A DNA stretch of 64,000 bases from Novosphingobium sp. Lineage in GTDB: Bacteria; Pseudomonadota; Alphaproteobacteria; Sphingomonadales; Sphingomonadaceae. Both the position numbers and the translations under genes were made by a program. Of the stretch, positions 6,273 to 35,694 are shown piece after piece (the first letter of the stretch is position 1; each line of letters opens with the position of its first letter). The stretch is from contig NZ_JANXWG010000103.1 in assembly GCF_025351285.1 (NCBI RefSeq), forward strand, positions 1-64,000, read 5' to 3'. The notes under the pieces were generated by a model, which worked only from the letters and a program-made list of their open reading frames with translations, searched no databases and had not been told where the DNA came from.

Positions 6273-6376
6273 CGTCGCCCCGTGCTTGACACGGGGCATG
6301 GATAACCTTCTGCGGCTCTTCCCGACAACGAACGCTCCGAAGGAAAGCCAAGCCCCGCATCGAGTGCGGGGCGACG
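6273..6376. repeat. Paired inverted REP/BIME-like palindrome element A
   Basis: cgtc-gccccgtg-cttga-cacggggc ... gccccgca-tcgag-tgcggggc-gacg; two 8-bp-stem hairpins with 5-nt loops in inverted orientation. Confidence 0.75.
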
Positions 6377-30501: not shown

Positions 30502-30723
30502 TCAGGCGGCAGCGTAGATAGCCGGACGGTAGCGCGGCTCGGGTATCGGCAGGCTACGCTCGATCGCAGTTTCGATCCACAATTCGATAGCGACTTGCGC
30601 TTCGGCAATGGCCTCTTCGGGCGTTTCGCCATGCGCCGAGCATGGCTTGAGATCGGGCACATCCGCGATCCAGCAATCGTCGTCAGCGGCCCAGAAGACG
30701 TTGATATGGTAGCGGTGCTGCAT
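30502..30723 (-). CDS. hicB: HicB-family antitoxin
   Basis: MQHRYHINVFWAADDDCWIADVPDLKPCSAHGETPEEAIAEAQVAIELWIETA; 73 aa; ATG overlaps HicA stop (TGATG). Confidence 0.85.
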   Translation of the reverse strand: MQHRYHINVFWAADDDCWIADVPDLKPCSAHGETPEEAIAEAQVAIELWIETAIERSLPIPEPRYRPAIYAAA

Positions 30724-30977
30724 CACTTGTCCAACTTGAGACCATTCGCCTCGACAATACCAAGAAACTCGCGGACCTGATAGCGCTTTGCGTCCTTGCC
30801 TTTGGGCTGGAGGACCAGAAGCGCATCGCATTGCGGGTGCGCGTAGGACCGATGGCTGCCCTTGGAGCGAATATGCGTGAAACCGAACGCTTCGATCATT
30901 GCGATGAAATCGCGAAAATCGATCGAACGATCGGTCGATTGCAGGAGCAGGGTGTAGAGTTTGGCGGGCTTGGTCAT
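30723..30977 (-). CDS. hicA: HicA-family mRNA interferase toxin
   Basis: DFRDFIAMIEAFGFTHIRSKGSHRSYAHPQCDALLVLQPKGKDAKRYQVREFLGIVEANGL - HicA with catalytic-His-like GSHRSY. Confidence 0.85.
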   Translation of the reverse strand: MTKPAKLYTLLLQSTDRSIDFRDFIAMIEAFGFTHIRSKGSHRSYAHPQCDALLVLQPKGKDAKRYQVREFLGIVEANGLKLDK

Positions 30978-31063
30978 GGGCTTGATCCCCTTCGGCCACA
31001 CTACAGGTATCAACCACACATCTCTGTCAAACTGCTTTTCCCGGACTCTGCAATCACCAAGAA

Positions 31064-31381
31064 CTATCGGCCAAAGAGTCTTTCAAAGATCCATTTTCGA
31101 TCCCTTGTTCCCCACCGGCGATTTGCTGACTGAGCCCACTCCTCTGGTCGGCCACCCTGATGGAATTGACAGTCTGAGAAAATCTCAGCCACCAACAACA
31201 GGTCATCAAAGCCGAGCCTTGATGATAGTTCACCTCTCGCGATCGCCAAGTCCAAACTTGTGTCAATGAGCCAACAATTTTCTGCAATTTCGCATCGGGC
31301 ATATTGCGCCAGTGCCTTAGAAAAATGCGAGCGGTCCGTTTCCTCCGGACCCCAGCGGATCACAACAACTAGCACCGCCAT
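31064..31381 (-). CDS. Small SinR-like/Cas2-fold-like protein coupled to uvrB
   Basis: [67 protein letters not shown]...; ATG at 31381 overlaps the uvrB stop (TGATG). Confidence 0.6.
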   Translation of the reverse strand: MAVLVVVIRWGPEETDRSHFSKALAQYARCEIAENCWLIDTSLDLAIARGELSSRLGFDDLLLVAEIFSDCQFHQGGRPEEWAQSANRRWGTRDRKWIFERLFGR

Positions 31382-33567
31382 CACTTCCCCCACTTCTTCT
31401 GGCTCTTGCCATACCTCGTCTTCCGCGTCCCCGGCTTGCCCTCATTGCTCCTCCCCACATTCGGCGCCTTGCTCTGCTCTCCCGCCAAGCCAAGCTCGCC
31501 CGCTTCCAGCCGCCGGATTTCATCGCGCAACCGCCCGGCTTCTTCGAACTCGAGGTCCGCCGCCGCCGCGCGCATGCGCTTTTCCAGGTCCTCGACGTAA
31601 GCGCGCAAGTTGTGGCCGACGAGATTGTTCACCCCGTCATCCTCGATTTCCACCAGCACGCCGTCGCGGCTGGCGGTGTCGGCGATGATGTCGGCGATGC
31701 CGCGCTTGATCGAGGCGGGGGTGATGTCGTGCAAGAGGTTGTAGGCGTGCTGCTTTTCGCGGCGGCGGTCGGTTTCGGCCATCGCGCGCTCCATGCTGCC
31801 GGTGATCCGGTCGGCGTAGAGGATCACGCGGCCGTCCACGTTGCGCGCGGCGCGGCCGATGGTCTGGATGAGGCTGGTTTCGCTGCGCAGGAACCCTTCC
31901 TTGTCGGCATCGAGGATGCACACGAGGCCGCACTCGGGGATATCCAGCCCCTCGCGCAGCAGGTTGATGCCCACCAGCACATCGTAAACGCCCAGCCGCA
32001 GATCGCGGATCAGTTCGATGCGTTCGAGCGTTTCGACGTCGCTGTGCATATAGCGCACGCGCAACCCCGCCTCGTGCATGAACTCGGTCAGATCCTCGGC
32101 CATGCGCTTGGTCAGCGTGGTGACGAGCGTGCGATAGCCCACCAGCGCCACCTTGCGGCATTCCTCGATGCAGTCCTGCACCTGGTCTTCCACGGGCCGT
32201 ATGAACACCGGCGGGTCGATCAGTCCGGTCGGGCGGATCACTTGTTCGGCGAACACCCCGCCCGCTTGCTCCATCTCCCAATTGCCGGGCGTGGCCGAAA
32301 CCGCCACCGTCTGCGGGCGCATCGCGTCCCATTCGTTGAAGCGCAACGGGCGGTTGTCGATGCAGCTCGGCAGGCGAAAGCCATATTCGGCCAGCGTGAT
32401 CTTGCGACGGTGATCGCCCTTGGCCATCGCGCCGATCTGCGGCACGGTCTGGTGGCTTTCGTCGATGAACAGCAGCGCGTTGTCGGGCAGGTATTCGAAC
32501 AGCGTCGGCGGCGGTTCGCCCGGCAGACGGCCCGTCAGGAAGCGCGAATAGTTCTCGATCCCCGCGCAACTGCCGGTGGCGGCGATCATCTCCAGATCGA
32601 AATGCGTGCGCTGTTCCAGCCGCTGCGCCTCCAGCAGCTTGCCCTCCTCGTGCAGTTCCTTGAGCCGGTCTTCCAGCTCGAAACGGATCGCATCGGCCGC
32701 TTGCTTCATCGTCGGGCCGGGGGTCACGTAATGCGAATTGGCGTAAACGCGCACTTTTTCCAGCGACTGGCCCTTCTTGCCGGTCAGCGGATCGAATTCG
32801 TGGATCGCCTCGATCTCGTCGCCGAAGAACGACACGCGCCAGGCCATGTCCTCGTAGTGGCTCGGATAGATTTCGAGATTGTCGCCGCGCACGCGGAACA
32901 TGCCGCGCGCGAAGGCCACGTCGTTGCGCTTGTATTGCAGCGCCACCAGCTTGCGGATCAACTCGCTCTGATCGACGGTTTCGCCCTTCTTCAGGTCGAA
33001 CACCATCGCCGAATAGGTCTCGACCGAGCCGATGCCGTAGATGCACGACACCGACGCGACGATGATCACGTCATCGCGTTCCAACAGCGAGCGGGTGGCC
33101 GAATGGCGCATCCGATCGATCGCCTCGTTCACCGAGCTTTCCTTCTCGATGTAGGTGTCCGATCGCGGCACGTAGGCTTCGGGCTGGTAATAATCGTAAT
33201 AGCTGACGAAATATTCGACCGCGTTGTCGGGGAAAAAGCTGCGAAATTCGCCATAAAGCTGCGCCGCGAGCAGCTTGTTGGGCGCCAGGATCAGCGCGGG
33301 GCGCTGCAGTTCCTCGATCACCTTGGCCATCGTGTATGTCTTGCCCGACCCGGTCACGCCCAGCAGCACTTGCGTGCGATCATCCTCCCTCGCGGCCGCG
33401 ACAATGTCCCTGATCGCATCGGGCTGATCCCCCGCCGGCTCGAACTCCGACCGCACCACGAAGCGCTTGCCGCCATCGGGCTTGTCGGGCCGCGCGGGGC
33501 GGTGGGGGACGAAAGTGGAGGTGGTATCGGGCTCGGCAAGCCCCCGGCGGATGACGAGTTCGGACAT
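31381..33567 (-). CDS. uvrB: Excinuclease ABC subunit UvrB
   Basis: [76 protein letters not shown]...; UVR motif at C-term. Confidence 0.98.
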
Positions 33568-33613
33568 GGCGAAGATATGTGCGTTCCGCTTGCGTTCCGC
33601 AACCGGGAGTGGG

Positions 33614-33704
33614 TGTCATGCTGAACTTGTTTCAGCATCCAGCGTGCCGCCTGCACTGATCGTGGATTGGGAGAGATGGACCCTGAAACAAGTTCAGGGT
33701 GACG
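33614..33704. repeat. Paired inverted REP/BIME-like palindrome element B
   Basis: tgtc-atgctgaa-cttgt-ttcagcat-cca ... tgg-accctgaa-acaag-ttcagggt-gacg. Confidence 0.8.
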
Positions 33705-33727: not shown

Positions 33728-34045
33728 TTAGTGGCTTCGAAATAGGTCATCGTCACCGCCATTAGCGTAGCGGGCCTTCAACTCATCTGCTTGGAGATCA
33801 AAGATCGCAAGAAGGCGACCGTTTACAAATAATCCGGTAGCCGTACCGGAGGAGTTCCACCTGATTGAAACGGGCACATCAACGGGCATGCTATTGACGA
33901 TATCGGCTCTGAACGTGCCAACGATCTGATTGCCCTCTCGCTTGTGCAAATCCAGCAAGTAGAAAAAAGCGGTTTCTTCGTCCCTTTCGAAAACGGACCC
34001 GAACCGACCCGCTGCTTCAACAGAGCTCTCATAAACGTCGACCAT
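33728..34045 (-). CDS. DUF2251-like small protein
   Basis: MVDVYESSVEAAGRFGSVFERDEETAFFYLLDLHKREGNQIVGTFRADIVNSMPVDVPVSIRWNSSGTATGLFVNGRLLAIFDLQADELKARYANGG; resembles DUF2251 from memory. Confidence 0.65.
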   Translation of the reverse strand: MVDVYESSVEAAGRFGSVFERDEETAFFYLLDLHKREGNQIVGTFRADIVNSMPVDVPVSIRWNSSGTATGLFVNGRLLAIFDLQADELKARYANGGDDDLFRSH

Positions 34046-34161
34046 GGCCGAAGTATGCGCGCCTGCCGGGATATCCGCAACGGTGTCACAAGCGCCCATT
34101 CGCTGATGCCAACCCCCAATCAAGTGCCGGTAGCCGCGGTCCTTGGACCGCCCAGCCCTAC

Positions 34162-35694
34162 CTACCCCGCCACCACAGCCTCCGCCTTCCTGAACAGCAC
34201 CCGATCCTCCGGCCCGAAGCCCAGTTTCCAGATCATCGCCATGTAGCACGCCAGCATCGCCGGGATGCCCGCGAGCAATTCGAGCCACTCAGGCAGCCAG
34301 TGCGCAGCCCAGCCGATTGCCGCCGTCGGCAGCGCAGCGGCCACCAGCGCCCAGCGCCAGTTGCTCACCTTGCCGCCCAGCAAATAGCGCACCAGCCGCG
34401 ACTTGACCGCCGAGGCCAGCGCCAGCGTCAGCGCCAGCGCCGCCGCCACCGCCGCCGCCTGGTAGAACGGCAAGTGCGCGGCATCGACCGCCATCCACGG
34501 CGGCAGGTCCCAGTCGGGCAGCGAGCGCAGGAACAGGATGAACGCCACCGTCAGCCCAGCCTGCACCACGATCGTGCCCAGGCTGATGATCAGGTTGCGC
34601 ACCGGCGCGATGTAGATCAGCGCGGCCTCGCTCACCACCGCGGGCGCGGCCATCACTTCGGCCAGCAGCAGGAATGCCGCCGCGCCGGTGCCGCCCACGA
34701 AATGCGGGCCGACCAGCCCCATCACCGCCTTGGCCGGAATGCCCAGCGCCAGCGCGATGCCGGCTTGCGCGGCGGTGATCCAGAAGCCCACCTGGCACAA
34801 TTGCCGCGCGATTGCCGGCAGGTTGTTCTCGGCCAGGTTGCGCGTGATGACAGGCCCCAGGATCGGCTCGAAGCTGCTCTTGAGCTTCTGCGGCAGGCTG
34901 GCGATCTGCTGCGCCACATAATAGACGCCCACCGCCTCTGCGGGCGCGAACTGCGCCAGAATCGCGATATCGAGCTTGCGCGTGCCCCATTCGACCGCAT
35001 CGGCGCCCGCCAGCGGCAGGTTGGCGAGCGTCAGCCGGCCCAAGCCCAGCACATCGGGCCGCCACTGTTTGGGTAGGCCATAGCTTTTCACCAGCGGTAC
35101 CAGCGCGGTCGCGGTCGCGCCGAAGATCGACAGCATGTAGGCGATCGCCAGCCCATCGGTGGAATTGACGTAGTACAAGGCGCCGGCCGCGATCGACAGC
35201 GTCCACGGCTCCACCACCGCGCGCGCGCGCACCGTGGCGCCCACGTCGAAGCGATAGGCCAGCGCTGCCAGCGCGATGTCGCCGATCGCCATCGGCAGGA
35301 TCGTGATCGGCAGCAGGTGTTCGAGCAGGGTCGATCCGCCATGTGGAAACATCGGCTCGGGGAACAGCCACAGCACGAACGCCAGCACGCCCGCGCCGCT
35401 GACCGACAGCAGCAGCGCATCGGCGACGATGTTGGCGCTCGGCCGGGTCCGGCGCGACAATTCCTGCGCCAACCCGCGCTTCAGCCCCAGCGTGGCGAAC
35501 TGCGCGGCGAATTCGACGACGATGATCGCCGCAGCAAACCGCCCGAGCGCGGCGGCGCCGTAAAGCCGCCCGGCAATGAACAGGAACGGCAACCGCGCGG
35601 CCAGGCGCAGCAGGAAGCCGAACACATTGGTTCGTCCGCCACGCGCAAGCGCGGCGATATCGGTCTGTTCATTGGCGGGGGCGATGATCGTCAT
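34162..35694 (-). CDS. Polysaccharide biosynthesis flippase-like protein (MVF/MATE-like, multi-TM)
   Basis: About 510 aa, about 12 hydrophobic segments; ALARGGRTNVFGFLLRLAARLPFLFIAGRLYGAAALGRFAAAIIVVEFAAQFATLGLKRGLAQELSRR. Confidence 0.8.
   Translation of the reverse strand: MTIIAPANEQTDIAALARGGRTNVFGFLLRLAARLPFLFIAGRLYGAAALGRFAAAIIVVEFAAQFATLGLKRGLAQELSRRTRPSANIVADALLLSVSGAGVLAFVLWLFPEPMFPHGGSTLLEHLLPITILPMAIGDIALAALAYRFDVGATVRARAVVEPWTLSIAAGALYYVNSTDGLAIAYMLSIFGATATALVPLVKSYGLPKQWRPDVLGLGRLTLANLPLAGADAVEWGTRKLDIAILAQFAPAEAVGVYYVAQQIASLPQKLKSSFEPILGPVITRNLAENNLPAIARQLCQVGFWITAAQAGIALALGIPAKAVMGLVGPHFVGGTGAAAFLLLAEVMAAPAVVSEAALIYIAPVRNLIISLGTIVVQAGLTVAFILFLRSLPDWDLPPWMAVDAAHLPFYQAAAVAAALALTLALASAVKSRLVRYLLGGKVSNWRWALVAAALPTAAIGWAAHWLPEWLELLAGIPAMLACYMAMIWKLGFGPEDRVLFRKAEAVVAG

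Follow-up and report, generated by a model that had tools for sequence, protein, structure and literature searches.

A 91-bp pair of inverted CGTC REPs beside uvrB in Novosphingobium sp. and a GIY-YIG nuclease as candidate mover of its family

The window analysed here, a stretch of 64,000 nucleotides from Novosphingobium sp., contains two short elements that are each built from a pair of inverted palindromes. Element B (33614-33704, 91 bp) lies between uvrB and a DUF2251 gene. Element A (6273-6376, 104 bp) has a similar plan. The features discussed are as follows.

6273-6301, forward strand: left REP of element A, CGTC-GCCCCGTG-CTTGA-CACGGGGC-ATGG
6348-6376, reverse strand: right REP of element A, inverted, CGTC-GCCCCGCA-CTCGA-TGCGGGGC-TTGG
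31381-33567, reverse strand: uvrB, the downstream neighbour of element B, with its start at 33567
33583-33597, forward strand: GTTC-N7-GTTC motif, between element B and the uvrB start
33614-33641, forward strand: left REP of element B, tag TGTC, stem ATGCTGAA/TTCAGCAT, loop CTTGT, tail CCA
33642-33676, no strand: spacer of element B, 35 bp
33677-33704, reverse strand: right REP of element B, inverted, tag CGTC, stem ACCCTGAA/TTCAGGGT, loop CTTGT, tail CCA
33728-34288, reverse strand: DUF2251 gene, with its stop at 33728

Element B consists of two inverted 28-bp REPs, each with a YGTC tag, an 8-bp stem, a 5-nt loop and a CCA tail. The two arms, the CTTG-type loops and the YGTC/GACG ends described in the initial annotation are found exactly at these positions. 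The annotation had also claimed compensated differences between the arms, and the stems bear this out: the bases differ between left and right arm with full compensation, pair 1 being A-T in both arms and pair 2 T-A in the left arm and C-G in the right arm. Among the inverted repeats of the window element B ranks second (27-nt arms, 85%). Folded as DNA it gives z = -5.8, and none of 200 shuffled sequences is equally stable. The ends of its spacer correspond to a subterminal region, marked by the weak motif T-C-x-x-G-C-C after CCA, that short dimers share with the GIY-YIG-bearing elements described below.

Element B begins about 24 bp past the stop codon of the DUF2251 gene and leaves intact the GTTC-N7-GTTC motif, which we take to be the alphaproteobacterial SOS (LexA) box consensus and of which about one match per window is expected by chance. 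A hairpin just past a stop codon and with a strong RNA fold (z -4.4) might be a terminator or mRNA stabiliser of uvrB or the DUF2251 gene, kept by selection. However, element B has no T-run and no terminator-like match (an intrinsic terminator being a GC-rich hairpin followed by a T-run). Rfam gave no match within the window. The initial annotation had suggested looking for insertion polymorphism at this gap; the loci upstream of uvrB in 22 same-genus relatives contain no REP, in neighbourhoods that differ from that of the host (no DUF2251 gene). The same element also occurs at unrelated places, and we give the regulatory explanation almost no credence. The insertion at uvrB is probably neutral, and it may have a side effect on transcripts. 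Near uvrB, at 30502-31019, there is also a HicA-like toxin gene (Pfam PF07927, E 2.4e-10), and an overlapping frame resembles its HicB partner.

Element B is not a chance palindrome, because BLAST finds seven further copies in the same genome (82-86% over the full ~90 bp) as well as partial copies. The host assembly comprises 4.08 Mb in 163 contigs and is 99.66% complete. The core CTGAACTTGTTTCAG, allowing up to 2 mismatches, occurs 25 times, compared with three times for a reversed-pattern control; these cores make up 11 head-to-head dimers and a single unpaired half, and the two remaining matches look like chance. The eight dimers of 91-92 bp are without exception heterodimers, while two of the three longer ones are homodimers. 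Element B had been read as one of the paired, dispersed CTTG-loop palindromes of unproven mobilisation, and the tool results support that reading: copies are dispersed in the host genome, not confined to one position common to all relatives. GTDB genomes containing the element belong to Sphingomonas, Novosphingobium, Erythrobacter, Sphingopyxis, Sphingobium and others. Matches in plasmid records are limited to two Novosphingobium plasmids, and there were none in phage records. At one locus of Sphingomonas echinoides (L117:61-640) four REP dimers form a tandem array with a 163-bp period.

Judged by sequence, element B is a head-to-head CGTC-REP dimer of CGTC-2-like type, because its tag, stem, loop, tail and head-to-head pairing agree with the description by Di Nocera et al. 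2013 (PMC3733652). CGTC-2 is also described as having complementary A/T at stem positions 1 and 2, which element B shows at the first pair in both arms and at the second in the left arm only. The 91-bp element is thus a new member of the known CGTC-REP family. The initial annotation had recognised paired palindromes whose mobilisation is not well established; it did not identify the family as CGTC REPs, and the GIY-YIG partner was not visible to it. Of 155 REPs surveyed, 153 carry the CGTC/TGTC tag at one end and 124 form 62 head-to-head dimers, 51 of which are heterodimers. CGTC REPs apparently have no dedicated transposase according to the survey that defined them (Di Nocera 2013, PMC3733652).

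Among 62 dimers from REP-selected loci an outer length of 91 bp is the most frequent, and minor clusters lie around 132-146 and 403-406 bp. The 403-bp group encodes, between the same REPs, an open frame of ~100 codons for a GIY-YIG domain protein. Nuclease-bearing elements of the B REP type contain this one gene and are mostly 403 bp long. In 119 loci chosen solely for holding a REP, all six head-to-head B-REP pairs spaced 200-3500 bp apart contain a GIY-YIG gene. We also approached the association from the side of the gene, by a GIY-YIG protein profile search of 200 Sphingomonadales genomes in which the best ~110 matches (110 genes) were scored. With a generic CGTC-REP finder and REPs within 200 bp of the gene, 47 of these 110 genes are bracketed by head-to-head REPs; when 300-bp segments were placed at random in REP-rich loci, six of 2612 were so bracketed (odds ratio 324, p 9e-64).

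The partner protein belongs to Pfam PF01541, scoring 44-65 bits across several REP types against a curated cut-off of 22.6. It has the GIY and YIG motifs and the catalytic Arg and Glu, and Y10, Y21, G23, R31 and E68 are invariant in seven sequences. The gene is under purifying selection (median dN/dS 0.17). An AlphaFold model based on the seven sequences is of moderate quality (pLDDT 71) and supports the fold alone. The nearest solved relatives in the PDB, by sequence and fold, are UPF0213 (1zg2), SLX1 and UvrC.

The REP-GIY-REP layout recurs with other CGTC-REP types in Rhizobium, Shinella, Neorhizobium, Azospirillum, Aeromonas, a Neisseria gonorrhoeae record, the N. aromaticivorans plasmid pNL2 and Sphingobium. 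Bacteroidota, Treponema and a Heliobacteriaceae MAG show the layout as well. No REP was recognised at 53 of the 161 GIY-YIG genes examined; similar hairpins lie on both sides of 11 of these and on one side of 22. At five loci in Bacteroidota and the Heliobacteriaceae MAG (L243, L245, L246, L248, L253) the REP core GAA-CTTGT-TTC adjoins GIY-YIG genes. These genes are on branches far from the Sphingomonadales ones, and the common core reflects either an ancient link or convergence. At another locus (L328, G050:C5:158556-160403) 578 bp separate a pair of GIY-YIG genes that score identically with the profile. CGTC REPs with 9-bp stems surround them, and a tandem duplication of the whole element is possible.

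The type of the flanking REPs follows the phylogeny of the enclosed gene. A phylogeny of 104 nuclease genes requires 20 changes of REP type; labels shuffled 200 times require 53.2 on average and never as few as 20, and the left and right REPs are of different types in three cases only. Element A provides an example from the host itself. It is a CGTC-REP dimer of type A, with stem GCCCCGNN and loop CTTGA/CTCGA, and, as the initial annotation had noticed, shares with element B the YGTC tag, the 8-bp stem and the overall plan, its tail being ATGG/TTGG and not CCA. The cognate GIY-YIG gene of element A survives in the host genome solely as a pseudogene on contig C137 (2253-2468, with an in-frame TGA), flanked by A-type REPs (2173-2201 and 2550-2578). 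In the tree the pNL2 gene stands closest to it and likewise lies inside A-type REPs (99% support). No nuclease of the type matching element B was found in the host genome. With only the decayed element-A-type gene left, the REP family in this genome looks like a relic.

The number of REPs also tracks the nuclease. In statistics over 201 genomes that ignore phylogeny, the median number of further B cores is 11.5 in genomes with a B-type nuclease gene and 0 in those without (p 3e-11). With phylogeny again ignored, a B-type GIY gene is present, among the best ~110 matches, in 17 of the 24 genomes that contain 12 or more B cores (odds ratio 31, p 1e-11); within the same set of matches the remaining seven, the host included, have no detected B-type nuclease. 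The REP-rich genome G186 contains 234 cores. The corresponding comparison bears on whether HUH Y1 enzymes, that is RAYT or IS200 transposases, move CGTC REPs in trans as they do GTAG REPs. The architecture does resemble that of REPINs, and Y1 genes are present in 40 of the 201 Sphingomonadales genomes. However, a Y1 transposase occurs in only three of the 24 REP-rich genomes, with no association (p 0.42), and a search for Y1_Tnp (PF01797) found none in the host genome, the control genomes being positive. Moreover, the tag is CGTC and not GTAG, and no CGTC unit flanks any RAYT gene in Di Nocera 2013 (PMC3733652). We consider mobilisation by Y1 enzymes very improbable.

Short dimers and nuclease-bearing elements resemble each other beyond the REPs. 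The weak motif T-C-x-x-G-C-C after CCA is common to both (p 4e-21). Counted over 160 dimers in fetched loci, the 12 nt outside the tag are G-poor in every size class (8-11% G, compared with 29-33% further out; pooled p 1.5e-56); at element B itself the right flank is G-poor and the left is not. The flanks are slightly self-complementary (4.11 of 12, compared with 3.54, sd 0.11), which weakly suggests a preference for palindromic targets. Some insertion sites are themselves palindromes, such as ccgcggagt[element]actccgcgg. With its inverted ends, length of ~90 bp and multiple copies, element B could pass for an ordinary MITE of a DDE-type insertion sequence. Yet none of the 160 dimers has identical 4-mers or longer on both sides, where 0.5 would be expected by chance, and the sole gene found between such ends encodes a GIY-YIG protein. 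An origin from a DDE element therefore seems barely conceivable.

The pairing of REP types depends on spacing. Among dimers of up to 105 bp there are 84 heterodimers and 12 homodimers, while 36% homodimers are expected from the type frequencies (p 2e-7). The ratio is 6:18 for dimers of 106-200 bp and 15:18 for nuclease-bearing elements. Weighting each organism equally keeps the effect (55.5:8.5, 5.2:11.8 and 13.9:16.1; p 6e-6 and 7e-5). Identical REPs at close spacing are presumably lost or collapse to solo palindromes, because they make long near-perfect inverted repeats that also hold direct stem repeats.

We compared matching sites between related genomes. Six dimers of genome G219 were compared with the congeners G099 and G175, and four of the six have no counterpart at the orthologous position in the relatives read; at one such site (L375) the dimer is missing between two collinear genes. 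The other two are conserved in G099, and one of these was aligned to G175, where it is missing. The junctions in these comparisons are not base-exact, the intergenic sequence having diverged between congeners. No base-exact empty site was obtained at uvrB (40 relatives), on Sphingobium, Sinorhizobium and Shinella plasmids, or in the G219 congeners. On Sphingobium plasmids some strains contain the full REP-GIY-REP element, and others have either a solo double-tagged palindrome or no CGTC REP. A Sinorhizobium pair shows the same contrast between full element and solo palindrome. Solo palindromes of the form CGTC...GACG occupy the place of the whole element at L351 and L352 (compare L208, L355 and L356) and at L357 (compare L203).

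A solo palindrome at two sites is also what one would see if a palindrome had been there first and the element had homed into it or been deleted back to it. The most serious rival to a mobilising nuclease is that a free-standing GIY-YIG homing endonuclease copies itself into CGTC palindromes, the REPs being moved by something else and the nuclease being a passenger. GIY-YIG domains are classical homing enzymes, and Sphingobium TomTYG64/74 and Sinorhizobium K101 have solo palindromes where other strains carry the whole element. However, the same site lacks any CGTC REP in TomTYG72 and TomTYG65. Homing would also leave unexplained why REP type tracks the nuclease tree, why short dimers have the subterminal motif and flank signature of nuclease-bearing elements, and why nuclease-bearing genomes contain more of the other REP copies. 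We regard homing as unlikely, though a good deal less so than the other alternatives.

The GIY-YIG nuclease is, then, the best candidate for the missing mobilising enzyme of CGTC REPs, because full-length relatives of element B carry that single gene between the same two hairpins. We consider it likely that element B is a non-autonomous copy (internally deleted, MITE-like) of a REP/GIY-YIG mobile element, with the nuclease as candidate mover. The autonomous form would consist of a REP, one small GIY-YIG nuclease gene and an inverted REP. The nuclease, as a relative of UPF0213/SLX1-type structure-specific endonucleases, would recognise its own REP hairpins when replication leaves them extruded or single-stranded, and would cut them at their YGTC-tagged feet. 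Cutting would mobilise any DNA between two head-to-head cognate REPs, be it the nuclease element or the empty 91-bp dimers. SLX1 is a branched-DNA nuclease, and the fold neighbours UPF0213, SLX1 and UvrC, as judged with the predicted structure, suit such a structure-specific role. We infer that the nuclease is the mover and that it both binds and cuts the REP. As GIY-YIG nucleases are hydrolytic and not known to join strands, host help or a new activity would be needed. Movement might proceed by excision and insertion or by break-and-copy.

With rather less assurance we lean towards a broader reading, in which CGTC REPs in several phyla would be the ends of an unrecognised class of mobile elements whose sole gene encodes a small GIY-YIG nuclease, each nuclease recognising its own hairpin type and driving both autonomous elements and short heterodimers. 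CGTC REPs, short palindromic repeats that are widespread in alphaproteobacteria, include Neisseria dRS3 and some Rickettsia palindromic elements. A nuclease gene that is enclosed by the repeats, covaries with them and tracks their copy number turns the question of the missing transposase into a simple biochemical and genetic test. If the proposal is true, another enzyme superfamily joins those that mobilise bacterial DNA, in a transposon-like system without DDE, HUH, serine or tyrosine-recombinase chemistry, and a use is found for many genes annotated merely as "GIY-YIG nuclease family protein".

Several known systems invite comparison. The partner protein shares PF01541 and the conserved catalytic residues with the GIY-YIG superfamily, which includes UPF0213/prokaryotic Slx1-like proteins, SLX1, UvrC and homing endonucleases (Dunin-Horkawicz 2006, PMC1564403). 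Unlike in the described members, the gene is here the sole cargo of a repeat-bounded element. We found no description of an association with REPs: a search of open-access papers, without preprints, gave none that links GIY-YIG to REPs, and an earlier description elsewhere is possible. The 2013 CGTC paper (PMC3733652) does not mention GIY, and the 2006 GIY-YIG survey (PMC1564403) mentions neither "palindrom-" nor COG2827. Neisseria dRS3 (CGTC-1 according to Di Nocera 2013, PMC3733652) belongs to the same repeat superfamily, and a GIY-YIG frame lies inside a dRS3-type cluster at one N. gonorrhoeae locus (L198). It differs in its 4-nt loop and clustered arrangement, and the GIY-YIG copy at L198 has an in-frame stop over the matched stretch.

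REPINs and RAYTs (Bertels and Rainey 2011, PMC3116915; Nunvar 2010, PMC2817692) resemble the present system in that an inverted REP pair is the unit, the nuclease gene is flanked by its own REPs and REP type is tied to enzyme type. In contrast, the tag is here CGTC instead of GTAG, and the GIY-YIG enzyme is unrelated to HUH Y1 transposases. The closest match is to the CGTC-2 REPs (PMC3733652), which have the same YGTC tag, 8-bp stem, 5-nt loop and CCA tail, occur as intergenic head-to-head heterodimers, and are present in many copies in Sphingomonadales and other alphaproteobacteria. They were published without a transposase gene, whereas here a GIY-YIG gene lies between the REPs. The present data amend the published "no associated transposase", which is not a defining structural feature of CGTC-2. 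The heterodimer preference moreover depends here on spacer length, and this dependence allows a further question that PMC3733652 did not settle to be approached quantitatively.
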